Assembly: GCF_004210375.1 (NCBI RefSeq)
Contig: NC_134829.1
Span: 53,994,107-54,058,106, forward strand
Length of the DNA stretch: 64,000 nucleotides
Direction of reading: 5' to 3'
Source: Tachypleus tridentatus
Lineage: Eukaryota; Arthropoda; Merostomata; Xiphosura; Limulidae
The notes under the pieces: generated by a model
What the model was told of the DNA's origin: nothing
Database searches by the model: none
Seen by the model: the letters and a program-made list of their open reading frames with translations, nothing else
In this document: positions 6,668 to 64,000 of the stretch, piece by piece
How the letters are laid out: each line of letters opens with the position of its first letter
Position numbering within the stretch: position 1 is the stretch's first letter
Program-made: the position numbers and the translations under genes

Positions 6668-6742
6668 GTAAGTCTACGGATTTCCAACGCTAAAATCAGG
6701 CGTTTGATTCCCCTCGGTGGAGTCAGAAGATAATCCCCGTAT
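6668..6742 (+). repeat. SINE family II fragment
   Basis: It holds the phrase CTGTAAGTCTACGGATT, then CAACGCTAAAATCAGG, then GTTTGATTCCCCTCGGTGG, a tRNA-like head typical of a SINE abundant in horseshoe crabs (recognised from memory). The tail is cut where the next SINE starts. Confidence 0.65.
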
Positions 6743-6989: not shown

Positions 6990-9780
6990 TACAACCTATT
7001 AAAATGTTTATAAACTGTCTGAAATTTATCCTTGTAATAAATATCAACATTTGTTTTGTTGTTATTAACACAAAATTACATAACGACGTGATTATGTTTT
7101 TCCCATAACAAGTATCCAAACTGTCGTTTCAATACCGTTAGCCACAAAGCTTAGTGTTTTGAGCTAAAGGTTAAGAAACATTTTTCTGTATAGTACATGT
7201 TTCTGACAGGGATTGTGTTAACCATTCCATTCATTCACGTTCAGGTACTCTTTCACTGTGTCACTGTACAATAAAGAAAAAAATGAAACTGTTATTCATT
7301 GTTAGTGTTTCAAAACTGTGTTTTTAGCTGAAATCTATCAGAGAATGTTCGTACAAGATGGAGAAAATTAACGCTTTAAAAATGTATCAGAATGTCTGGA
7401 ATACTTTAACAATAGCCGAACATTATTTCTGAATGAAGATCGACCAAAATACTCAAACAATTCCATCAATGATTAAACACTGATGTGTCTAATTCGTGAA
7501 TTATGAAGTCACATTAAATTGTTTCATTTATTAAATTATTTTACTTCTTGAAACACACCAGTAAAATATAATTGTCCCTCGTCCATTCTGTAAATATGTT
7601 TTGTTTTTCGTTTTTCCATTTTCGCGCAAAGCTACACGAGGGCTATCTGTGTTAGTCGTCCCTAATTTGGCAGTGTGAGACAGTGTAGGGAAAGCAGTTA
7701 GTCATCACCACCCACCGCCAACTCTTGGGCTACTATTTTACAAATAATTGTGGCATTGATCGTCACATTATGATGCCCTCACAGCTAAAAGAGCGAAGAT
7801 GTTTGGTGCGACGGGTATTTGAACCCGCGACCCTCGGATTACGAGTCGAACGTCTTAACCCACCTGGCCATGCCAGACCTATATATGTATGTGCGTATGT
7901 GTTTCTCCTTTTTAAGAGGTTATACAAATTAATATCCTACTCGTTTCTTTAAGTTTTATTATTTCCAAAGAGTAAGTTTATATCTATTTACTTTTTGTAT
8001 TTAAATTGTAACTTATATTTTTTTATTTCCTTCACTTATTTTTATTTTAAGCTTTCGCGAAATTACTATTCGACATTTTAAAACCAATTTACTTAAGAAT
8101 CAGTTTGTAAAAGAATAGCTGAATAAAAATAAACAGTTTAAAATTGTTGTGAATATCCAGTTGTCACATTCATGTGTTTCACAAATTCACTGAGCTTTGA
8201 CTTTTCATGTTCAGACAACATCAACCTATATCTGTACAGAATTTTATTTTTATTTAATGTTAAGCTACCAAACATCTCAAGTCTTTTAAAAGTACCATAA
8301 TTTTTCTATACACATTAAATTACAGTGGAACCCCTCTAATCAGGCCAGTTTGTCTCAGTCCTGAAGGTGGCTGCTTCAGAAGGGTTCAACTGTATGTGAC
8401 AATCTAAAAATTTACTGTTCTCTCTATTTCAAATTAAGTGAGTAAAACGAGTACAATAAATTTGAAACACAACAATCATACTTCGATATTTTGTAGTATG
8501 AACATTAACTTTTAATTATTTATATCATCTCTTAAGTATTTCTCCATAAAATGGTGATTCAGCAAAATATATGAATATTTCATACCACACCCTTGTTTAT
8601 TTGTCTATAACTATGTCTGGGAAAATTTTCGTTATTTGCAGTTTTACTACTAGAGCCAATCAACTCACAATAACTTTGCAAATCTAGAATATATTTCAAA
8701 CATTATATAATATTTTTAGGATTTAAACTAGTTAGATACTTATGGTTCTCGTCTGGGAGTTAACTAGTAAAGTGAAATAAACAAAAGTAAACCTAAAAAT
8801 TCATGAATGTCAAAATATAAGGACCCAGTAGACATAGTTCTCGAGTGTCCAGACTAAATCCGAGATTTCGTGGTTTGTAACTCTCTGATGCGGAAAAGAT
8901 GAACTATTTTATGCACGCAGATGCAGAACTAAGATGAAAATAAAAACCTACTGTTCAATCATACAAAACTAATCCAAAAATGGGAAGGTACCATAGATTC
9001 TGAGCAACTAGCTCTACATTATTATCCATTTATCAAGTTTCCCGAAAAATTCAAGACAACATAGATTATTTAACTCTAAACCAATTCCCAAAGTGTTCGG
9101 CCACAAAGATGCGAAGCTTACAGTTAATACACTTATCTCTTTTTATAAAAGAAAGATATCTTCGTCGGCTTTTCTTCGTCAAATTCTATGACGGATTTCG
9201 CAATGACAACTAAAAAAACGAACTTTTCTATTGTGATCTCCATCTACTAATAAGCAAGTATTTTAGCTGCGTACTTTGACACTTAACCAGGCCTTGAAAT
9301 TAGTCTACTCAAAGTAAAGCCCAAGTGCAGAGGTAATCATTAGAAATCTAATGAGAACATAGTGATCAGTAAGCCATGCTATTAACATTCGTAATATGTA
9401 TTTTGTCTTTTCAAACAACAAGAGTTAAGGTTACTTTAACTATATCAGATAAAATATGAGTTGAATCTAAGCTCTAAGAATTTCAAGATTTTACTATTTT
9501 CATAAAGACATTTAATTTTATTCTTAATTTACTGCAGGTATGTAATTCAAATTATTTTAAGCCTACGTAGTCAAACTTGAGACTGTAAATTTTATCTTTA
9601 ATTAGGCTTACGTTTCTTAGTCCTTGAACTATAGTGTCAAGTACGTAGTATATAGTAAGCCTACATAACTATTTCTGTATTTTTAAGTATTGATCAAGAT
9701 TTTATTAAATATAATCATAGTAAAAATAATTATTTCCCATTTTATCAGGAGGAAGGTTGAGAAGATACTCATATTATTTT
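6990..9780. repeat. Spacer sub-repeat S1 (unit 1)
   Basis: AT-rich non-coding DNA paralogous to S2 (about 10.27-12.48 kb) and S3 (about 14.34-18.48 kb). Landmarks shared by all three include TTATCCTTGTAA near the start and the segment around 8030-8300. S1 and S3 also share the GCCACAAAGATG landmark (about 9100 and 16995) and their end part (about 9540-9690 and 18230-18390). A minus-strand SINE is inserted at 7605-7885. No gene is seen. Confidence 0.7.
7605..7885 (-). repeat. SINE family I copy, nearly full length
   Basis: On the minus strand it begins with a tRNA-like head containing GGGTTCAAATACCCG-like B-box sequence, carries the body CACCACCCACCGCCAACTCT (plus-strand sense), and ends with GCTTTGCGCGAAAATGG. 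About 280 bp long. Confidence 0.85.
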
Positions 9781-11185: not shown

Positions 11186-11455
11186 CCAAATGGGTTAACG
11201 CGTTCGACACATAATCTGAGGGTCACGGTTTCGAATCTCAATCGACCAAATATGCTCGCCCTTTCACCCGTGGGTTCGCTATAACGGTACGATCAATCTC
11301 ACTATTAGTTGGTAAAAGAGTACCCCAAGATTTGGTGGTGGGTGGTGATGACTAGCTGCCTTCCCTCTAGTATTACACTGCTAAATTAGCGACGGCTCGC
11401 GCATGTAGCCTTCGTGTTGCTTAGCGCGAAATTAAAAAAACAAACAAATAAACAA
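11186..11455 (+). repeat. SINE family I copy
   Basis: tRNA-like head (GGGTTAACGCGTTCGACAC, GTAATCTGAGGG-like, TTTCGAATCTCAA), body GGTGGTGGGTGGTGATGACT, tail GCTTAGCGCGAAATTAAAAA. Near full length. Confidence 0.85.
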
Positions 11456-39920: not shown

Positions 39921-40600
39921 ACGTCACGCCACAGAAAGCTTACTGTGTAAATTTTTAACAACAAACAAACCAAAAATAGTTTAAATCCAGTAACACGTTT
40001 TTCTTTAAATCAATAAGATATCAAAACACAAACAAGTAATAATCGTAAAATAAATGTTTTAAAATTATATTTTTATAATTTTTCTGTTTTAAAAGTAACT
40101 TCTAATTCTTCACAGTGTTAACTATTTTTCGTTTCATCTGCGTGTAAGGTTTTTATTAAATTATTAACACGTTCAAACGTAACACAAAGATTTTTATTGC
40201 ACCCTTTTTGACATTTCGTCAAATTTGAAAGTTAGTTGGTCTGCGTAACTAAGCCTGGCATGACCTAGCGCGTTAAGGCGTGCGCTTCGTAATCTGAGGG
40301 TCGCGGGTTCGCGCCCTAGTCGTACCAAAAATGGTCGCCCTCCCAGCCGTGGGGGCGTTATAATATGACGGTCAATCCCACTATTCGTTGGTAAAAGAGT
40401 AGCCCAAGAGTGGGCTGTGGGTGGTGATGATTAGCTGCCTTCCCTCTATTCTTACACTGCTAAATTAGGGACGGCTAGCACACATAGCCCTCGAGTAGCT
40501 TTGTGCGAAATTCCAAAAAAACAAAGAAAACTGCGTATCTAATAAATTAAAAAAATTAAAATTCGACCACAATTTATTAAAATGTTCTTATAAATGTAGA
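39921..40600. repeat. First part of the S2-type spacer in unit 3
   Basis: Matches about 9995-10400 of unit 1, interrupted by the SINE at 40253-40530. Homology stops near 40600, where the Penelope-like remnant begins. Confidence 0.65.
40253..40530 (+). repeat. Full-length SINE family I with target-site duplications
   Basis: It starts GCCTGGCATGACCTAGCGCG with A box, then B box GGGTTCGCGCCCTAG, body GGTCAATCCCACTATTCGTT, tail GTAGCTTTGTGCGAAATTCC and an A-rich end. It is flanked by CTGCGTAACTAA (40241-40252) and CTGCGTATCTAA (40531-40542). The empty site is at about 10319-10330 in unit 1. Length 278 bp, the reference copy for this window. Confidence 0.92.
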
Positions 40601-49596: not shown

Positions 49597-49654
49597 TGAT
49601 TTTATTAATGGATTCCATTAAAAATTTCTTTTGTTAGTTAATCCCAAAAAAATT

Positions 49655-50239
49655 TTTCCAATGTGCTAACGTGTCTTTAAACGACTTTATCGAGCCCACA
49701 GTATCAAACGTTTTCACACCTCGTTCAATTGCCCTTAAACGTAAAATCGGAGAGTTTAGTTTCCTCAGTCTTTTCTCTTTCTATCAAAAACTGAACAGAA
49801 CATTTTCAAATAAGATCGCGTGCATCAACGTTTCAAACTATTCACGCATTTAAGAAAAATAAAGCTCATAAACCCATTCTATCGAAGAGTTGTAAACTGC
49901 TGGTCAGATATTTCGTCGAACGTGACATGATTACGCGAAGGCCGTTTCAGCACATCAAATTTCGCAGCAGTGCACGCATTATATTCAAAAGTAATAACGT
50001 TCCTGTTTTGATTTATCACACAACAATCACACGAATTTCTGAAAGTAGTTACAAGTGTAGGGGGAAACACGATAAATTCTGTGATATCTCTCAGCCGTCT
50101 CACGCTCTGACACAGATATTATGAAGAAAATATGTTTCCACGTTCTCACCATCTGATTTAAAAGAAAACGAATGGTTTAAAATATTAATATGTGCCTATC
50201 AGGGATCGTACCTAGGACCTTCCGCGTGTTAGGCGGATG
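49655..50239 (-). repeat. tRNA-Val repeat unit, copy interrupted by a LINE
   Basis: It is about 90-95 percent identical by eye to 56910-57351 plus 57530-57680. It carries the spacer (CCAATGTGCTAACGTGTCTT near 49657) and the 3' two thirds of a tRNA-Val at its right edge. Open frames at 49879 and 49927 are spacer sequence readable on both strands. Confidence 0.7.
50192..50239 (-). pseudogene. tRNA-Val(AAC) 3' fragment, split by LINE insertion
   Basis: 48 nt, from linear tRNA position 25 (3' edge of the D stem) to the discriminator side, including anticodon loop CTAACAC and the B box. It differs at four places from the intact gene at 57303, including a changed B box (GGTACGATCC). Box A and the acceptor 5' strand are absent, so it cannot be transcribed as a tRNA. 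Confidence 0.85.
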
Positions 50240-50493
50240 TTTTTTTTTTTTCTCTTTATTGATCCCAGCTATACACAGAAATACAACAAATAAAACAGAA
50301 GTTAATCAATTAGCATGTAACAACAACTCAACAGATTACCATGCTGAAAATTACCACAAAGTTAATAAAATTAAGTAAAAAATATAAAATAGGTAATTTG
50401 AACAGCAGGTAATCCACCAAACATTACAGTGAACATTAACAAAACAAGAAACCAATGGATCTTTCATTGGTAACAAAAAAAAGAAAGAAGAAA

Positions 50494-51996
50494 TTATGTT
50501 AACAAATCAAATAAGAAATAACCTTGAGCCCCTTGGGTTACCAAGGTGCCAATATAAGAATACACAGAATAAAAAACATTTAATGAGTTATGTAACAAAG
50601 ATCTATTACAATGGAGATTTATATGTTTACGTACACGCACTTTAAACATGGAAATTAAATGAATTTCGCGATGACTTGTCAAATAAACTGAACGAGCAGA
50701 ACATATAACCTGACGTGCCAAACTAGTAATCAAACGGAATATGTACCAGCATCTCCCGGGTAACGAAGGATGAGATCCCACTAAGAGGCATCTCCTCCAT
50801 ACCCAGGTAGATATGGGACAAGGAAAATAAAACGCCAATAATTTATATACATATGACCAAAAAGGCTATACAAAATGACATTGGAAAAACAGATGGTCTA
50901 TGGTTTCTCGCGCCTGTGAACAGAAAGTGCACAACCCTGTGGGATAACTGTCCATATGTACCAGCTTGACATTAGTGGTTATCGCCCGCAACCACAGTAA
51001 ATAATCCACATCACAAACATGAAAACCCACAAAAGAAGAATAAGCGTATTTTCGAATGCGTTTCTAATCTCCAGGAGGAACAATATCCGCCCATAAGAAT
51101 GGAGCAGGTAAATTAGTAGCTAGTGAACACTGTAAATGACCCACCAGTTGCTTCACAGATAAACCCTGAAAATGAACCCGGTTATCAGAGTGGTCCAAAA
51201 AGTATAATCCACAACACGTGTGGACAATGGGAGAGGAGCCGGCTGGTTGGACAAAACCGTCAACAAGTCCACAGGCAACGCCTCCTTAAGCATATTAAAA
51301 TGTGAAACAATTGCGCGGACATTGGCCAACGGGTCAGCGTCCGTACACATTTCAATCACTGCCCCCACCGGAAGAAAGACAGGGAGCACCTCGTACAATA
51401 AATGTCGGACTTGAACCAAACCTGCGTTAATAAATTCAGGAAAATGAAATGTTCGGTGGCGAACATCAACAATAGCCGGATTGAAAAACAAAGGTTGATC
51501 AAAAATTTGTGGGTAAAGAGGAGCTGGGACAATCCCTTTATCCCAAAGAAGAACCTTCCAGGCTTGAAACATTTCCTGAATATACAAAGGTAACGATTTC
51601 ACAAAACGTGGCAAAATTCGGCATTGAAGAATCCGAAAGCCCAAAGAGAGATTGCCATAACAAGAAAAAAAATCCAGAAAGAAGTTGTCGCAAGGTGGAA
51701 GGACAAGAAGCATCCAAACAACGCTGCAACAATTTCAAACGGAATGTGAGTTTACGAGTGTTAACATCAACCAAGTTGATACCTCCACAATCATAACTCC
51801 GGATCAGAATACCGTATGCCACTTTATGTATACCTCCCCGCCAAATAAAATCAAGTATACATTTGCGAAATCGAGCCTCAAACTGTCTTGGCAACGGGAG
51901 AATATTCAACGGGTACCATAACACCGATGCCACCAAAGAGTTCACCACAAGAGATTTACCCTTTAGCGACAAAGAACGAAATCGCCACGACACCAA
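50494..51996 (-). pseudogene. LINE ORF2 C-terminal region
   Basis: Starts with SLSLKGKSLVVNSLVASVLW then LDFIWRGG and GGINLVDVNTRKL, the region that follows the reverse transcriptase in Tx1-like proteins. A second frame (51713-51153) gives EMFQAWKVLLWDKGIVPAPL and LFFNPAIVD. A third part near 50.9 kb contains CTFCSQARETIDHLFFQC, the terminal CCHC zinc finger, and ends in the 114-residue frame 50838-50494. At least one frameshift separates the first two parts. Confidence 0.75.
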
Positions 51997-52026
51997 GATA
52001 CGAGATACCCTTCGCTAAACACCCTG

Positions 52027-53421
52027 CTACGTATCTTGCAGCATGACATCGAAATGAGAGTGGAAAACTATTCCCAAAATCCGAATAGGATCCTGGAAAA
52101 TTCTCAACTCACCAAGGACAAAGTCTGCAGAAGAGGCCAAACACCCAACCCACAAACCCTGACTCTTGGTCCAGTTGATCCTCCCCCCAGTAGCTTTGCC
52201 AAAAATTTGGCATACATCCAACACATGCGGCAAAGATTCGGCGTCTCGTAAAGTTAAAGTGGTATCATCAGCATGCTGATAAGTAAGTGATGGCGTGGTG
52301 AGTAACACATCACCACCAATACCAGTAATATGTACATTATGAACTAACATATTTCGTAACGGTTCGACACTGAGAACGTAAAGTAGAGCAGACATTGGGC
52401 ATCCTTGACGAATACCCCGAGTTACATCAAAATCATTAGTGAGAAATCCATTAAACTTAACACAACTAGAAATTGAAGTATAGCAAAGACGAACCCAATG
52501 AACAAAAGTAGAACCAAAACCCATACGCAGAAGAAGTTGAAATAGATAGTCATAGGCCACCCGATCAAAGGCTTGCATCTGATCGAGCTTCAAAAAGATT
52601 CCACCCTGGCCGGTACGTGCTAAAGATTGCAATAGCAAAACGAGTGTTAACGGAGTATCAGCAACGTCCCGTCCAGATATACACCCGGATTGGTCATCTG
52701 AAACTAAACTGGAGATCACAGACGAAAGGCGACGAGCCAGCACTTTGGCCAAAAGCTTATAGTCAGAACAAAGCAATGTCAAAGGCCCGCTGTTGGCCGC
52801 CAACCGTCGATACCCGCCTTTCGGGATAGGAACAATTACCCCAGAACACATTGTACGGAGAAACTGTGGAGAGTGGAACTGTTCAGACAAGACAGATAAA
52901 AAGTCGTCAACAAACAGAGGGAGAAAATATTTGTAAAATTCGGACGTAAAACCATCCAAACCAGGAGATTTGCCCAGCGGTAAACTGTCTAGAGCAGCGA
53001 GAACTTCCGGAACCGTGATTGGAGCATCACAAATATGAGCTTGTTCATGGGAAAGAGTTCGATCAACAAATGAGATAACGAACTCGATGTCTGCCTGCAG
53101 AACGATATCCTTAGAGTACAGTGCGGAATAATACTGATGTAAAACAGCAGCGATATCTTCCACACCGGACACCTCCACACCCCTATCAGTGAGCATGGAT
53201 CGAAACTCAATTCTGCTTTGACGGACCTTTTCCATACGAAGAAAGTAAGACGTAGATCTCTCACCCTCCTCAAACCAACGAATATGAGATCGAATCCTCG
53301 CCCCCTCTATGGTATCGTGATCCAAAGTCTCCAATGCATCTTCAAGTTCATACAATTTTACCGTTGGACCTACCATGGTAACGGGACAGTTTTCGAAGCT
53401 CACGAGTGATGGACGACTCAA
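52027..53421 (-). pseudogene. LINE ORF2 reverse transcriptase domain
   Basis: An open stretch of 464 codons. Motifs in order: LPLGKSPGLDGFTSEFYKYF, VIVPIPKGG, LLCSDYKLLAKVLARRL, SDDQSGCISGRD, KLDQMQAFDRV (first catalytic Asp), TRGIRQGCPMSALLYVLSVE and YQHADDTTLTL, the catalytic ADD box with His instead of the more usual Tyr/Phe-Ala context. Then GGRINWTKSQGLWVG. It continues in the same frame past stops at about 52025 into the C-terminal part. RNA template binding and target-primed reverse transcription is the known role of the family. Confidence 0.88.
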
Positions 53422-54373
53422 GCTGACATTTGCGAGAACGGGATGCCCGCGCTCGAAGAATCGAATAACGCTCGATAAGTAAACGGAACGCGCATTTTAA
53501 TTGTTCATACCACGTAATTTTATCAGTCCCATTTACTGACCAACTACGACTTCTGGCGAGCAACAGCTTAATGGCTTTCACATATTCGGCATCCCTCAAT
53601 AACTGGTTATTGAAGTGCCAGAAATTAGGACCTCTGACAACGGGCCGCAGCGTAAGTTCGAAGCCCAATAAAGCGTGATCTGTAGCAGGAAACCACAACG
53701 TACGTAAACGTTGGACAGTCCCCTGCAAGGTAGAAGAAAGCAAAACCCTATCAATACGAGACGACATCATCTCACCATTAACAAAACGCTTCCATGTGAA
53801 ACCAGGTGTAGTCGGAGATATGAGTGAATGCGCATCAAGCAAATCAAACCTATTAAGAAACTGGACAAAAGCCGAACGGCTGGCGTCACGGTGGAAACGG
53901 ACCGGAAATCGATCGCGTGCCACATCCACCACACAATTAAAATCTCCCACAACAAGCAATCCCGTGCAACCATCCAAACAATACTCCAAGCTTAGGAAAA
54001 ATTGCCGTCGCTCGGAGATATCGCGAGGAGCTAACACAGATGATAACAGATAAGACAAAGACTCGAAACTGAATTTTACAGTCAGAACCCGACCCACCCC
54101 ATCAGAAGAAACGAATGTAACATTATCACTCAAAAACTGCTGTAACAAGATGGCAACCCCTTGTCGGCCAGTAGGAGAATTATTAACAAAAGCTACACCT
54201 GGCCAAAATTTCAGAACGACATCATGAAAATCATCAGTAAAAAACGTTTCCTGTAAACAAACAACATCAAAATTAGTAACAAAGTACTCCAAATAATAAG
54301 CCAGCTTACTAACATTACGCAACCCATTACAATTCAAAACTCCCACCCTTAGTAAATGTACCATGCCAAACAC
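53348..54373 (-). pseudogene. LINE ORF2 endonuclease domain
   Basis: A 341-codon frame beginning MFGMVHLLRVGVLNCNGLRN. APE-type motifs: LQETF, LLVVGDFNCVVD, SSRIDRVLLS and ATDHALLGFEL, covering the catalytic Asn, Glu, Asp and His positions. It overlaps the reverse transcriptase frame, and a single frameshift near 53350-53420 separates them. This enzyme nicks the target DNA, and here that may include tRNA-Val. Confidence 0.88.
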
Positions 54374-54625
54374 AAATTAAAAATACAAGAATTGAAAGGA
54401 AACTGTCACAAACACAAAAATAACAAGAATAAATGTAAAGATCTAAGCAAATATGCACAAAGTACAAATAACAATAAATGACAGTCTTGCACTAACTGAA
54501 ACAAACAAACTGTCACAAAAAACACATTTAAGGCTGCGACAACGCCTTCGCCCGAGATATCCGTAGTATTGGCACGTCCGACACCCGTTTTCGTCCACTG
54601 CCTTTCTTTGAGTTGTCACCAGGAG

Positions 54626-55618
54626 TCATCGCCACCACACTAGCATACCTCCAACGACAAGGAAGAGGCACCTCCACATCGCCGGCAGGACACTCACCAC
54701 TAACCGGAAGTGGGGGGATGTGACGATCAAAATTGCAGCAGGGGGGTGACTACTAGCCCGTTCCCTGGCCCCACCAGAAACCGTCGATCGTCGGGCAGAA
54801 ACATCGTACACCACCCAATGGGTAGCTGCAGCCTCCCCTGAAAGGGGAACCTCCGAATCAACGCGAGGGCAAACAGATATTGTGAAAACATCATGAGGCA
54901 CTGTACGAGAGGGAGCAGCCGTGACTACTTCAGCGGCGTCACGATTAGTAGTAGGCGTGGCCACTTCAGCGTCGTCACTAGAGGAAGTTCGAGGAACAAC
55001 AAGCTTGGGACAACGTTGACGGACGTGTCCTTGCACATGACAATGTCGGCAAATAAACTGGGGGCAATCGCGATATAAATGATCCGTCCCCAAACATAAA
55101 TTACACACTTTTGACTGGCGATCATGCTTCACCTTCAACATAACCGCCTTGCCCAAAGGATCAAAAACTTTCACAACATACTGCAAAGAGATACACTTCT
55201 CACTAAAAGACACACGAACATGGCGTATACCTAAATATATGCCCTGGTCCCGCTTCCACACAATAGGGCTTTTCACTTCACAATCAAAATCTTAAAGTTT
55301 ATTTAGTATAATATCATCGTCTATATATTCAGGGACGTCCATAAATGACACAGTAATAGTGCGTTTAGTGACACCATTAGCCGAACAGTGCACACCATTT
55401 ACAACTAGACCAGCATCTATAGCCAAGTCCACATCGGCAGGAAGAACAAAAGTTACCTCATAACCACCCAGGCGAGGAACAACAGCAGTGAACAAAGCAG
55501 CACCAAACGTAGAAATAACTGAATGGATAACGTCCTCATGGCTTGAATTTGTCGTTTCCACAAAAACTGTACGACGCATAACTTCCATTACCTTCTTGGA
55601 AGATGAAGACATTGTCAA
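54626..55618 (-). pseudogene. LINE ORF1 (RNA-binding, double zinc knuckle)
   Basis: It starts MTMSSSSKKVMEVMRRTVFV and continues to one in-frame TAA at about 55292-55294, then DFDCEVKSPIVWKRDQG, YVVKVFDPLGKAVMLKV, and two CCHC knuckles: CNLCLGTDHLYRDC and CRHCHVQGHVRQRC. The layout with an N-terminal RRM-like region, a PEY motif (VPEYIDDD) and paired knuckles is that of Tx1-clade ORF1 proteins. About 331 codons. The C-terminal part is rich in Ser, Thr, Ala and Val. Confidence 0.85.
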
Positions 55619-55679
55619 ACAACTTGAAAAAACACAAAAACTATCAAAAAAAAGAGAACTACACGCTCACTAGGCTTAG

Positions 55680-55940
55680 CTGCTAAACTCACAGTTTTGT
55701 TTCCTCAAGCTTTTCTCTTTCTATCGAAAACTGAACAGAACATTTTAAGAGCTTTAATTTTTTTATCAGAATTATTAAACGATAACGTAATAAGCGATTT
55801 AATACGACTATTAAATCCATTAACAAAATTAGGGATCGTCTGAAATAATATTTAATCTTCGTTATTTTGTGACCAATTCTGGGATTGCACTCTGGCTGAT
55901 GTTTTCTTATCACACACAACTTGTTCAAGGTGTTCAATAC
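55680..55940. repeat. tRNA-Val unit spacer fragment beyond the LINE
   Basis: Matches 57618-57850 (TCTTTCTATCGAAAACTGAA and following). It has no tRNA. Its left edge is the LINE 5' end. Confidence 0.75.
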
Positions 55941-56889: not shown

Positions 56890-57302
56890 CAACCTGGCAA
56901 ATACGTTAACTTATCTTCAAATAAGATCGCGTGCATTGACGTTTCAAACTATTCACGCATTTAAGAAAAATAAAACTCATAAACCCATTCTATCCAAGAG
57001 TTGTAACCTGCTGGTCATATACTTCGTCGAACGTGACATGATTACGCGAAGGTCGTTTCATCACATCAAATGTCGCAGCAGTGCACGCATTATATTCAAA
57101 AGTGATAACGTTCCTGTTTTGATTTATCACACAACAGTCACACGAATTTCTGAAAGTGGTTACAAGTGTAGGGGGAAACTCGGTAACTTCTGTGATATCT
57201 ATCAGCCGTCTCACCCTCTGAAACAGATATTATGAAGAAAATATCGTTCCACGTTCTCACCATCCGATTTGAAAGAAAACGAATGTTTTAAAATATTAAA
57301 AT
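56890..57302. repeat. tRNA-Val repeat unit 2, spacer downstream of the tRNA
   Basis: Nearly identical to 49815-50191. The frame 56822-57235 is open through it, and the complementary strand is open too, as in the other copy; read as spacer. Confidence 0.7.
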
Positions 57303-57374
57303 GTGCCTGCCAGGGATCGAACCTGGGACCTTCCGCGTGTTAGGCGGATGTGATAACCACTACACCACAAGCAC
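57303..57374 (-). tRNA. tRNA-Val (anticodon AAC)
   Basis: 72 nt, starting GTGCTTG and ending CAGGCAC; acceptor stem has seven pairs including one G-U. D arm GTGTAGTGGTTATCAC; anticodon stem TCCGC/GCGGA with loop CTAACAC (AAC, Val); T arm CCAGG-TTCGATC-CCTGG. Box A and box B are intact, and TTTT lies a few bases after the 3' end on the minus strand (CATTTTAATATTTT), as needed for RNA polymerase III stop. No intron. It is more than a SINE head because all four stems form and the flanks are the array spacer. Confidence 0.93.
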
Positions 57375-57910
57375 CTCGGTTTCGCGATTTTTGGTGTTCA
57401 AGTTTTTAAAATAAAACGATAACGTTCCAAAATTTTATCTCGCAGTCTAAACAAACACAAATATAACGACAGCTTAACGTTTGACTTTAAATACTATAAC
57501 ACCCTCCTTTGTCTACCAAATCCAAAGGTATTTTCCCAATGTGCTAACGTGTCTTTAAAAGACTTTATCGAGCCCACAGTATTAAACGTTTTTACATCTC
57601 GTTCAATTGCCCTTAAACGTGCCAAACGCACAGTTTAGTTTCCTCAGTCTTTTCTCTTTCTATCGAAAACTGAACAGAACATTTTAAGATCTTTAATTTT
57701 TTTATCAGAATTATTAAACAATAACGTAATAAGCGATTAAATACGTCTATTAAATCCATTAACAAAATTAGCGATCGTCTGAAATAATATTTAATCTTCG
57801 TTATTTTGTGACCAATTATGGGATGGCACTCGGGCTGATGTTTTTCTTATCTCACACATCCCTACAAGTGTAGGGTGAAACTCGGTAACTTCTGTGATAT
57901 CTCTCAGCCG
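57375..57910. repeat. tRNA-Val unit spacer (upstream side) and truncated next unit
   Basis: 57525-57850 matches 49655-49800 and 55690-55900. At about 57862-57910 a short piece of the tRNA-proximal spacer (ACAAGTGTAGGGTGAAACTC) is joined directly to unit 3 sequence, marking the array end. Confidence 0.7.
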
Positions 57911-58211
57911 TTACTATTCCTACTATTTCAAATCAAGTGAGTAAAACTACTGCAATAAATCTCAAATACTACAATCCTAAGTCGATATCCTATAGTTTAA
58001 CCATTACCTTTTAATTATTTAGATTAACATTAAAGTATTTCTCCATAAATGGTGACTCAGCAAAATGTATAAAGATTTAATATTACACCTTTGTTAATTT
58101 ATCTCTGACTATGACGAGGCAAATTTTCTTTATCTGCAATCTTTAGTACTTGAACCTATCAATTCAACGATAACTTTGCAAATCTAGAATATATTTCATA
58201 CATTAAATAAT

Positions 58212-58425
58212 CTTGTACCCCACGCCAGTCCAGCGGTATGTCTCCGGATGTACAACGCTAAAATGAGAGGTTAATTTCTTCTGGGTGGGCTGAGAAATTG
58301 TCCTTCAGATTGGGGGTTGTGCAGTAGGCTAACACCTTACTCACTTAAAAACCAGCTTGTTACAGAATCCGCAGCGATTGCGGAACTATGTTCCTTCAGA
58401 AATCAAGAGGCATAAGTACGTTAAG
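58212..58425 (+). repeat. SINE family II insertion, unit 3 copy
   Basis: Same insertion as 12218-12429 (CAGTCCAGCGGTATGTCTCC); absent from unit 2. Confidence 0.7.
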
Positions 58426-58657
58426 TTAATAATATTTTTAGGTTTTAAACTAGATAGAAATTTATGGCTTTCGTTTCGGATTTGACTAGTAAGGTGAAGT
58501 AAAGAACACTTCATGAAAATCAACATATAAAACCGCAATAGACATTTTTGTGCGTCTAGACTAAATAAAAGGAATCAAGATAAAAACAGTGTTTACAAAA
58601 CTTCTAATATTCAATTTCTCCATTACATCAAACAAAGAAAAAAAAATGGTATATATA

Positions 58658-58864
58658 CACTGCTGGCCAAAATCTAAAGGCCAATAAACATAAAGAAAAA
58701 TATGCATTTTACGTTGTTAGACTCAACTACTTATTTGAGTAGAGCTTTTAAAGATGAAAATAAGAAAAGGAAAAATAAAAATAAAAATCGTTTTTATCAT
58801 TTAATAGGAAAATGTGAACACTATGAAATTAGTTTAATTGCCCTTAAGATTTTGGCCAGCAGTG
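58658..58864. mobile_element. Internally deleted Tc1-like element (MITE-like), 207 bp
   Basis: Same ends and same insertion site as the 1453-bp element at 25399. It keeps the full left arm, including about 80 bp missing from the unit 2 copy, and only the outer tip of the right arm; transposase is gone. Confidence 0.85.
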
Positions 58865-59384
58865 TATATCATTCTAAAAATGCACTGATTGAAAGAGACT
58901 TTCAAACTTAAAATTAAAATATGTGCAAAAGCACCATTCCTAATTGCAATATAATATTCACATGTAATTAAATCAATATTATCATATTAAAAATAAAATC
59001 CAGATATTTCTGACATTATCTCTAAAGTTTAATGAGTAACCTAAGACTTAATAATTCTTGAAACAAGACATATATAACTACAAACTTGAAAATGAACAGA
59101 AACCTTTTCAAAACTTCTCACCCAGTTGAATGGTGTTTAGGAATTCACAATAAATTAAAAGTTTTCGGTAACTGACATTCATCTCAATACTTTTCAATAA
59201 TTCATACCCAACTCATAAGTTACTCTCTCAAATGGATGCTTCTTAATAGCTTAAAACAAGGCGAATTGTTTGAACAATTAAATTATAACATAGAATGCAA
59301 ATCATTGAGACTTATCTTTGGACAAGAACATAGCCAGAAATGGCCATTGAGGAGGGTTAGTTTGAGTATTTGACACATGCGCCG

Positions 59385-61212: not shown

Positions 61213-64000
61213 TATTTATTAAAATACTAGCACTTCAAAACGTGGCATAAATATTTGTTTTTTACGATAATTTTCTGACACTTTGTCAAATTTAAAAATT
61301 ACTTGGGCTCTATAACAAATAAAGATTACAAAGATTAAAACAAAACATAATAAAACTCGATTACAACGTACTGAAATGGAATTTATCCTTGAAATAAATA
61401 TCAACATTTGTTTTCTTGTTCTAAACACAAATTTACATAACGACGTTATTATGTTTTCCCATCACATGTATCCAAACCGAAGTTTTAGTACCGTTAGCCA
61501 TGTAACTTATCGTAACGAGCTAAAGGTAGAGAAACATTTTTGTGTGTGGTACATGTTTCTGATAGAGATTGTTTTTAACCATTCCATCCATTAACGCGCA
61601 GATAACAATTAGATTGTTTCATTTATTGAATTATATTACCTCTTGAAATACACTACTAAAATATAATTGTTAGTAGTCTATCCTAGATATATTCATTGTC
61701 TCCTTTTTTAACTTGTATAAATCAATATCCAAGTCGTTTCATAAAGTTTTATTATTTCCAAACATTAAGTTTATATTTATTTACATCTTATATTTAAATT
61801 TTAAATTATATTTTTATTTCCTTCACTTATTTCTATTTTAAGTTTTTAATATCATGTTAATTTCAAGAAATTATTATTCCACGTTTGAAAACCAATTTGC
61901 TTAATGATCAGTTTGTGAAAGAATAAAAGTTTTAAGACACTGAATCAATATCAATAGTTCAAAATTGTTGTAAATATCTAGTTGTCACACTCTGGACTTT
62001 CACAAATGTGATTAACTATGACATTTTTAAATCAGCCAACAGTATCATGTAAATATTCTGAATTTTCTTTTTATTTAATGTCATGCTACCAACCACCTCA
62101 AGTGCTATAAAAGTACCGTAAGTTTGTCCTATACAATTAAGGTTATCCTGAATTGAATGACAATCTAAAAATTTATTATTACTTCTATTTCAAATCATGT
62201 TAAAAACATCTAATAAACAATAATCATAACTCAATATTTTATAGTTTAAACATTACCTTTTAATGATTTATATTAACTATAAAGTATTTATCCAGTAAAT
62301 GGTGACTCAGCAAAATGAATGAAGATTTAATATCACACCTTTGTTTATTGGTCTCTAACTATGACAAAGCAGATTTTCTTTATCTCCAATCTTTACTAAT
62401 TGACTCTATCAATTCAACAATGACTTTGCAAATCTAGAATATATTTCAAAGATTAAATAATATTTTTAGGATTTAAACTGGTTAGAAATATATGACTCTC
62501 GTCTCGGATTTAACTAGTAAGGTGAAATAAACGAAACTAAACTAAAATATTCATGAAAGTCAAAATATATGGCTGCATTAAACGTAGTTTTCGTTTGTTA
62601 AGACTAAATTCGAGATCCGTGGTTTGTAACCGTCTAATGCGGAAAATGTGTTACACATTTTATGGACAAATTACAAAGGTGACAGGAGAAACTGTTCTTC
62701 AAGCATACAATAGTCCAAAAATAAAAGTGTACATTAATACCATGGTCTCTAAGTCATTAGCTCTACATTATTATCCATCAATTGCCTTTACCGGAAAATT
62801 GTAAAAAAACTACATAGAATATTTAGAGTTTACACCAATCACCAAAATGTTAAAATTTCTCTCCATGTAAAATATTCTCTTGTTTAGTTTTATGCTATAA
62901 AGTTCTCTATTGAGAAAAACAAAAGGATAAAACTTTCAGCACATTAGTATAACATGAAGAATTTACATTTACAAGAAAAACAGGAAATAAATATATATTA
63001 CAAAAGTTTTGTGATTTTATGTAATGGCCCAATTGAACAGTCATTAACCTACTGCTGGTAACATATATATATGTGTATATACACGCCCAACATAACAGAC
63101 AATAAAAGGAATCAAGGTAAGAACAGTATTTATGAAGCTTCTAATATTCAACTTTTCCATTACGTCAAACAAAGAAACAAAATTGCTATACAGATATCAT
63201 TCTAATATTGCCACAGACTTTCAAATCTAAGATTAAAAGATGGGCAAAAGCACCATTCTTAATTACAATATAAAATTCCCCTGTATACAAATTAATATAA
63301 ACACATTTCTGAAATTATTGTAAATTATGTTTTAAGTTTGATGGTTGACCTAAGACTTAATAAATCTTGAAAAAAGACATTTATAACAACAAACAGAACG
63401 ACTCCATATTTTAATAGTATTATCCCAGTCAGTGAATGCGAAACTGAATAGAAAACTATCCAAAACTTCACAACCAGCGAACTGATTTTCAGTAGTTCAC
63501 AATAAGGTAAATGTTTTCAACAATTCATACCCATCTTAATACTGTTCAAAACTTAACACTCAATTGAATAATTCTGTCAACTTCACAAAGAGTCAAAACT
63601 GAAAGTTCTTCAAGAATGTTTTCGTTTCAAACTTAAATGAGTTTTTTTTCATAGTTCGTACCCTGTGAATATTTTGCCAATGCTTTCCAACACTTGAATT
63701 TTAACAAGGTCTGAAAGTACATGAGACTAAATTCAGGATATTGGGTGGTATACGAAAGTGTGTCACTGTGTCTACTATAACAAAGTTAAAAATAAAAACA
63801 TGTATTTTTATTATGGGAAATAATTCGATCGTTTAACTTGAAAAACTATAATTTAATACCGAAAGTATACCGCCACAAAGATGCCGAGTTTACAGGAAAT
63901 TGCAGAAGTACACATGTTCAACACAGTTAATACACTTATCTGTTTACCAAGAGTAACATATCTTCGTCGATCTTTCCTCGTTAAATTCTATGACAATTTC
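61213..64000. repeat. Long spacer sub-repeat S3 (unit 3, cut by window end)
   Basis: Colinear with 14300-17150. No gene. The SINE fragment of the other copies would lie beyond the window. Confidence 0.75.

Follow-up and report, generated by a model that had tools for sequence, protein, structure and literature searches.

A LINE in a 64,000-nucleotide window of the Tachypleus tridentatus genome, the window being the whole stretch of DNA analyzed here, ends inside a tRNA-Val gene, and this locus raises the question of whether such a junction reflects targeted insertion and, if so, what the element recognizes.

The LINE–tRNA-Val junction

The poly(A) end of the minus-strand L1/Tx1-type LINE is joined directly to tRNA-Val at nt 24/25, in the orientation of the tRNA, as a sequence-only reading of the window had proposed. 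The arrangement was confirmed by the sequence and by a blastn match of nt 24–73 of the intact tRNA-Val(AAC) to window positions 50191–50240 on the minus strand (92% over 50 nt, E = 1.5e-14), in which the first A is common to the poly(A) tail and the tRNA. The parts of the locus are as follows.

49627..50101, plus strand: flank of a tRNA-Val array unit downstream of the target (repeats D1, D4 and D5, common with the unit at 56913–57844)
50191..50239, minus strand: 3' part of tRNA-Val (nt 25–73), forming the target flank on the 3' side of the LINE (sequence; 92% to the window's intact tRNA by blastn)
50240..50251, minus strand: LINE poly(A) tail of 12 A, joined to the tRNA (sequence; similar tails precede other targets read)
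50240..55693, minus strand: LINE copy with ~60 nt of the family 5' end missing (alignment, 86–94% to full-length copies; 5' ends compared)
52027..53421, minus strand: part of ORF2 with reverse transcriptase (Pfam RVT_1, 90.7 bits)
53348..54373, minus strand: part of ORF2 with AP-type endonuclease (Pfam Exo_endo_phos, 41.5 bits; L1-type endonucleases in the PDB)
54626..55618, minus strand: ORF1 region, two broken frames (ORF list; 296-aa frame in locus L021)
55681..55905, plus strand: tRNA-Val array spacer at the LINE 5' end (repeat D2, 94% to 57620–57844)
57302..57374, minus strand: intact tRNA-Val(AAC) gene in the neighbouring array unit, a target without insertion (ARAGORN)

The surroundings of the LINE are a tRNA-Val array, whose unit flanks recur at 49627–50101, 55681–55905 and 56913–57844. 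The copy itself is atypical; the first ~60 nt of the LINE are missing, and its 5' end (55693) is joined to array spacer ~270 bp upstream of the target, with the loss of ~270 bp of target, across a short stretch common to spacer and LINE. The 5' part of the interrupted tRNA-Val was looked for in the window and was not found there. Beside the array lies a second repeated segment (57954–59085 and 62203–63394, ~4.0–4.5 kb spacing, 80–88% alike), and pieces of both target tRNA-derived SINE families occur at 6675–6732, 7746–7849, 11204–11306 and 40287–40386.

The 2.17-Gb genome (205 contigs) was searched for the junction. The junction pattern AAAAAACATCCGCCTAACACG occurs at 30 places with ≤1 mismatch, against 0 for the reversed control, and 33 of the 40 places scored with a 151-base junction query span the junction, that of the window included. 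A chance junction is therefore excluded, and the earlier view of a targeted insertion rather than an accident is upheld.

Proteins and classification of the LINE family

The ORF2 of the LINE carries the Pfam domains Exo_endo_phos and RVT_1, i.e., an AP-type endonuclease and a reverse transcriptase, which in the window copy lie in different frames (ORF list). The best relative in the PDB is human L1 ORF2p (E = 1.7e-62), ahead of R2 (2.6e-09), and the best match among single-domain endonucleases is 2v0r ('LTX', an L1-Tx1 hybrid). Two CCHC knuckles were recognized by eye in the ORF1 region of the window, and the 296-aa ORF1 frame of L021 gave no Pfam match. A-rich tails stand at nearly all 3' junctions read, with exceptions such as L029 and L152, and target duplications of 6–121 bp in part of the flank pairs give TPRT-like junctions. 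By its AP endonuclease and reverse transcriptase, its L1-nearest proteins, its poly(A) and its duplications, the LINE belongs to the L1/Tx1 group of AP-endonuclease LINEs, in agreement with the initial assignment at the level of this group, and is a candidate member of the Tx1 clade proper (L1-clade groups are treated in PMC3747384).

No ORF2 intact from endonuclease start to end was found in the long loci, some of which hold truncated copies; the longest open stretch among them is 929 aa (L010). Copies in 5S arrays (L018–L028) have ORF2 frame breaks in common, as expected if dead copies multiply with the array. Identical 3' UTRs, described below, together with a SINE-located copy that is 99.4% like the L016 copy over 490 bp, indicate that the family has moved recently; present activity is not claimed.

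Targets of the main family

The pattern TTGAGGTGGGATAAATAAAGA from the 3' end of the LINE was found at 302 places with ≤2 mismatches, against 11 for the reversed control, and a near-equivalent 20-base 3'-end pattern at 151 places. The census comprises 100 exact TTGAGGTGGGATAAATAAAGA matches listed, of about 150 exact ones, and draws on 40 small 3' flanks at listed places and on further flanks within 20 long loci. Coordinates, compared with the lists of tRNA-Val and 5S junctions, assigned 69 copies (43 5S, 26 Val, 0 on the opposite strand), and reading of the flank assigned the other 31. Among the matches listed, 99 of 100 run in sense into Pol III genes or tRNA-derived SINEs, a count that represents fewer than 99 independent events, since array duplication accounts for many of the 5S, Val and Leu copies. 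All flanks read have the sense orientation. Among the 100 matches listed, the targets are:

5S rRNA: 45
tRNA-Val: 28
tRNA-Leu: 10 (6 TAG/AAG, 3 CAG, 1 CAA with intron)
tRNA-Ile, Tyr, Ser and Asp: 2 each
tRNA-Met and Thr: 1 each
7SL RNA: 2
tRNA-derived SINEs: 4
Pol III gene not recognized: 1 (L029, satellite-like DNA)

tRNA-Phe is a further target outside the 100 (L084, L092 and L096). The sequence-only reading had expected a majority of 3' ends to continue with CATCCGCCTAACACG; with tRNA-Val after 28 of the 100 matches listed, this did not hold. tRNA-Val is a target, as proposed, but one of many, alongside 5S, 7SL, SINEs and the other members of a set of nine tRNA isotypes, and as the sole target it is rejected, the flanks of other copies being 5S, 7SL, other tRNAs and SINEs. 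Taken literally, the flanking by unrelated sequence that was to speak against site specificity does occur if the target is restricted to tRNA-Val, but what flanks those copies is again Pol III genes, of other kinds.

Program support from ARAGORN or Rfam exists for Val, Leu, Asp, Phe, 5S and 7SL, with weak Rfam hits for Thr and Met. Four of the nine isotypes were confirmed by ARAGORN and the others were read by eye; the Ile, Tyr, Ser, Met, Thr, Leu-CAG, Leu-CAA and SINE calls are readings of the sequence, helped for the SINEs by repeat matches. In 20 uncut flanks, Rfam detected 5S and SRP, with scores under or barely over the gathering threshold, and missed the tRNA halves; in 20 junction-cut flanks it gave 6 plausible hits (5S, SRP, Val, Asp, weak Thr, weak Met), of which those of 5S and Val reached the gathering score. 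At L078, ARAGORN reported no gene and typed the joined site as an intron-bearing Met, and another joined site was typed as Phe; both are read here as Leu. The L044 target is a degenerate SINE with a single repeat match. The LINE 3' end was absent from the fetched stretches L089–L091 and L093–L095, and a search with an older LINE copy as query returned mostly already-known array copies.

Genes of type 3 were represented by U6, found at 25 places with ≤3 mismatches (two clusters on C10 account for 20); no exact match among the 100 listed lies near any of these places. Type 3 Pol III genes may be spared, and 25 U6 places say little on this point. The U6 snRNA genes form two tandem arrays with a repeat of ~727 bp (C10:188515042-188518724 and C10:193849583-193861198). 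At L105 (C1:110936900-110939900), a tandem array of ~58-bp units lies next to the listed main-family copy without a Pol III target.

A sister subfamily

A sister pattern with a changed base in the 3' end, GAGGTGGGATBAATAAAGA, occurs at 66 places, mostly as dispersed copies; one of the 66 is the tRNA-Met copy of L010, already part of the main reading. From these, 20 copies, about every third, were sampled separately, after the main census. By eye, 15 of the 20 fit Pol III-type targets:

SINE type A: 7
SINE type B: 4
tRNA-Leu: 1
tRNA-Ser-like: 1 (junction ~8 nt further in)
tRNA-like sequence with box B: 2 (near-identical loci)

In the remaining 5 of 20, two of which are near-identical, no target was recognized by eye. 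The 3' flanks of L142 and L158 are near-identical and by eye resemble the cysteine-rich C-terminal end of the ORF2 of another LINE; to judge from these flanks, some sister copies may sit in other LINEs. In total, of the 302 3' ends, the analysis covered the 100 listed copies, the 20 sister copies and members met in the loci examined.

One lineage in many targets

A tree of 475 columns of the 3' UTR was built from 50 copies carrying 15 target labels. The labels need 23 changes on it, against a shuffle mean of 28.4, and are more clustered than in shuffles, as near-copies in arrays would give; support within the young part is low and the bootstrap unsettled. Identity of 3'-UTR rows across gene kinds stands without any tree: 11 identical rows cover 5S (8), tRNA-Met (1), tRNA-Val (1) and a SINE (1). 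For the young copies, this identity in different gene kinds rules out both array expansion alone and a set of target-specialized subfamilies.

Position of the nick and the surrounding motif

Within tRNA genes and the SINEs derived from tRNA, the poly(A) joins the target immediately 3' of the D arm. On junction-cut flanks, the Rfam tRNA model starts at 24 for Val and Asp and, in weaker hits, at 26 for Thr and 34 for Met, the 5S model at nt 27 (63 bits) and the SRP model at 36. The nick is at nt 26/27 in 5S and at nt 35–37 in 7SL, where the 3' flank starts at nt 36 or 37 of the complete upstream gene, depending on an ambiguous A. The start of box A (TRGY) precedes the nick by 16–19 nt in ten tRNA/SINE targets with the 5' side read; several have more than one TRGY before the nick, and the canonical one was chosen. 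The distance from the nick to box B is 26–28 nt in plain targets, 35 nt in Ser and 74 nt in the Leu gene with an intron (for Leu-TAG the script gave 10, a false match, and for Thr it found none). In 5S the nick lies upstream of the textbook position of box A. The one landmark common to tRNA/SINE, 5S and 7SL targets is the transcription start, roughly 27–36 nt upstream of the nick if tRNA leaders of 5–10 nt are assumed.

A loose motif around the nick is common to 9 of 12 targets after the ambiguous A is shifted, a shift that lends the motif more strength, with Val, Asp and 7SL as misfits. It was modeled from the 12 targets, each left out in turn and scored against window positions, at lengths of 20, 16 and 10 nt. 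The Thr, Leu, Ser, SINE-B, Phe, 5S and SINE-A sites score highly when left out. For Val, Asp and 7SL, respectively, the share of window positions that match the left-out score is 6%, 4% and 70% with the 20-nt model, 7%, 5% and 54% with the 16-nt model and 16%, 11% and 4% with the 10-nt model. For the median left-out target this share is 5e-5 to 7e-4, equivalent to ~2e5 to 3e6 sites in the whole genome. The motif may help; given the left-out scores of Val, Asp and 7SL, however, it cannot by itself yield the 99 of 100 copies in Pol III-type targets among the matches listed. Both the motif and the box A spacing reflect in part the common descent of tRNA-like sequences, and letters shared among targets so related do not count as independent support for a motif.

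LINE 5' ends, upstream gene copies and probable re-use

Full-length copies outside 5S start with GGAAAGCGCCGGTTCTCGTC, 19 nt of which equal 5S nt 21–39, as read in the 5' flanks. The copies in L069–L096 were found with a pattern holding part of these 5S-like 19 nt, and those in L016, L021 and L027 independently; L110 (Met) has the 19 nt with one change. This suggests that an ancestor living in 5S genes picked up the 5S piece and that the tRNA-hitting copies descend from a 5S-located source. Most copies (L016, L021, L027, L110, L069–L096) also show one extra G before the 19 nt, which could be cap-derived.

ARAGORN found a tRNA gene beside the LINE 5' end at 11 loci (L015, L016, L021, L071–L074, L080, L081, L084 and L096), and in L097 and L098 full 7SL genes (264 bits each) end at the LINE start. 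Many tRNA insertions, and those in 7SL, have a complete gene upstream of the LINE and the remainder of that gene again after the poly(A). Comparison of 20 flank pairs gave the following duplications:

Leu-CAA: 104 bp, 103 identical; ends ACTTTT
Asp: 60 bp, 55 and 58 identical; ends at a T-run
Phe: 65 bp, 59 identical; ends TTCTTT
Val: 53–57 bp; ends without TTTT
Leu: 61 and 79 bp, the latter with filler
Ile: 48 bp, its start 30 nt inside the 3' flank; the upstream half of the gene is missing
7SL: 121 bp aligned, 120 identical; an AT repeat then interrupts the 3' copy
Ser 21 bp, SINE-B 17 bp, SINE-A 14 bp
5S: 13 bp, ambiguous, as the LINE itself carries these bases
By eye, not script: L011 9 bp; Thr 6–7 bp

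The two Tyr copies, Leu-CAG, the C7 SINE and the C1 copy yielded no duplication, and the LINE 5' end of the second Ser copy was not located. Repeated gene parts of 53–104 bp end at or near T-runs, and the upstream copy tends to stop at the terminator whatever the gene length, with duplications of ~57 and 104 bp; the upstream 7SL gene is complete to its end, 263 nt past the nick. Copies ended at the terminator would fit either a jump to the transcript 3' end or a second cut at the terminator. Against a terminator rule stand the Val duplications, in lacking TTTT, and tRNA-Met, whose repeat continues ~127 bp beyond the gene and fits the rule only given read-through. Rebuilding is not universal, as the SINE, Ser, Thr and 5S duplications are short (6–21 bp).

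Often the LINE has an intact tRNA or 7SL gene on its upstream side, which leaves the site available for another hit. Among the matches listed, 7 pairs by coordinates form tandems of LINE, gene 3' part and LINE, with 76–92 bp between the 3' and 5' patterns, and L138 and L035 are further tandems by sequence. Such tandems are expected if a rebuilt gene is struck again; unequal exchange can also make or spread them.

Proposed mechanism and its rivals

Guidance of the LINE by the Pol III transcription complex is the best explanation of these data, and we consider it probable. Tethered to the initiation machinery of Pol III, through TFIIIB or the polymerase itself, the LINE complex would nick the template strand with its ORF2 endonuclease ~27–36 nt downstream of the Pol III start, tRNA starts being assumed, and a weak preference for sequence would tune the exact base. 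Reverse transcription would then start on the poly(A) tail. The gene would often be rebuilt through its terminator, either by a second-strand cut there or by a jump of the reverse transcriptase onto the 3' end of the Pol III transcript of the same gene, and the rebuilt gene would survive, open to another insertion. A more specific version, in which a Pol III-tethered LINE renews its own landing pad as the reverse transcriptase jumps from the LINE RNA to the U-rich 3' end of the target's transcript, rebuilding tRNA and 7SL genes for re-use, is offered tentatively, as a possibility with somewhat less than even chances. Guidance by the machinery is supported by the Pol III-type targets of 99 of 100 main copies among the matches listed and of 15 of 20 sister copies. 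Against it count the 5 of 20 sister copies and the 1 of 100 listed main copies outside recognizable Pol III genes, and the loose nick motif shared by 9 of 12 targets, by which sequence could do more than merely tune.

That motif is the basis of the main rival, a relaxed sequence-specific LINE whose endonuclease and ORF proteins read a short motif, approximately RAGNC/R followed by YGG, with Pol III uninvolved. The resemblance of 5S (AAAGC/GCCGG) to tRNA-Leu (AAGGC/GCTGG) is in line with it, as is the precedent of known site-specific LINEs and Dada transposons, which read DNA sequence according to PMC3706591 and PMC8869645. However, Val, Asp and 7SL score poorly when left out, 4–70% of window positions matching them, and the median-level sites abound in the genome, yet nearly all listed copies are in Pol III-type targets; we regard this rival as unlikely, while taking it seriously. 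Far less credible is a scenario free of targeting, in which the tandem expansion of arrays would have multiplied a handful of chance insertions into tRNA-Val and 5S genes. Arrays with like flanks do contain most of the 5S, Val and Leu copies, but twelve target kinds (5S, 7SL, nine tRNA isotypes and SINEs), spread over many chromosomes, are hit in sense and at the same position; different gene kinds carry identical 3' UTRs, duplications of 14–21 bp occur outside arrays, and dispersed sister copies sit at the same spot in SINEs. Least probable of all, and barely worth retaining, is the joining of a tRNA or 5S piece to the LINE RNA before or during insertion, so that it would not be target DNA. 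L1 chimeras with tRNA halves, 5S and 7SL exist (PMC13174262), but here the piece sits after the poly(A), is followed by the genomic DNA native to that gene's downstream side and has its counterpart on the other side in a target-site duplication or array flanks.

Comparison with known systems

Mutsu of zebrafish (PMC11202950) is a ~5.5-kb element with two ORFs that inserts into 5S genes. The present LINE shares 5S insertion (45 of 100 among the matches listed) but not a restriction to 5S, as 54 of the 100 are in other Pol III-type targets; compared by description alone, Mutsu is described for 5S, whereas here 5S, 7SL, tRNAs and SINEs are hit by one lineage. TRE5-A and TRE3 of Dictyostelium are likewise L1-type and, according to PMC5391098 and PMC5911963, target many tRNA genes and 5S, their position being thought to be set by box A and not by box B. 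Targeting of many tRNA genes is common to both systems, with nine isotypes here. In contrast, the TRE elements integrate at a set distance outside the gene, TRE5 ~47 bp before it and TRE3 on its downstream side, whereas the present LINE nicks inside the gene, which is often rebuilt. Fungal LINEs may also be Pol III-guided, according to the review PMC5911963.

The sequence-only reading had suggested that tRNA-Val may be an undescribed target; non-LTR elements at tRNA loci are already in print, with families in tRNA-Pro, tRNA-Arg and tRNA-Glu (PMC4640811) and one in a tRNA-Leu spacer (PMC3706591). These elements, NeSL-1_TV, LIN15_SM, LIN25_SM and Dewa (tRNA-Leu spacer), resemble the present LINE in residing at tRNA loci and differ in using one tRNA type each, as described in both papers. 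The first three are placed there near NeSL, a clade encoding an RLE (PMC4640811), in contrast to the AP-type endonuclease found here. Dada DNA transposons also occupy fixed positions inside tRNA and 5S genes, and snRNA genes as well; unlike this LINE, they have a DDE transposase and 6–7 bp duplications, and they target primary sequence, mostly one kind per family, at tRNA nt 8–13 or the anticodon region (PMC8869645 and PMC3706591). In U6/L1 and other L1-RNA chimeras, a small RNA is joined to the LINE by template switching or ligation and is ectopic (PMC13174262), whereas here the upstream copy is the very gene struck. A literature search, with Repbase and most subscription papers outside its scope, found no LINE inserting inside several Pol III gene kinds; a database entry for this family may exist already.

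Biological significance

As described in PMC3706591 and PMC4640811, site-specific animal LINEs use one gene kind per family and read DNA sequence, and the Pol III-guided LINEs described in PMC5911963 and PMC5391098 are those of slime moulds, which land outside the gene. The junction set assembled here makes the choice between motif and machinery directly testable. If guidance by the Pol III complex is true, the horseshoe crab harbors an animal LINE that inserts at one place in 5S, 7SL, tRNAs and SINEs and often spares the gene, which would explain how LINEs build up in 5S and tRNA arrays without destroying every gene. It would also offer a natural system for studying how LINEs find transcription complexes and a guide to harmless insertion sites.
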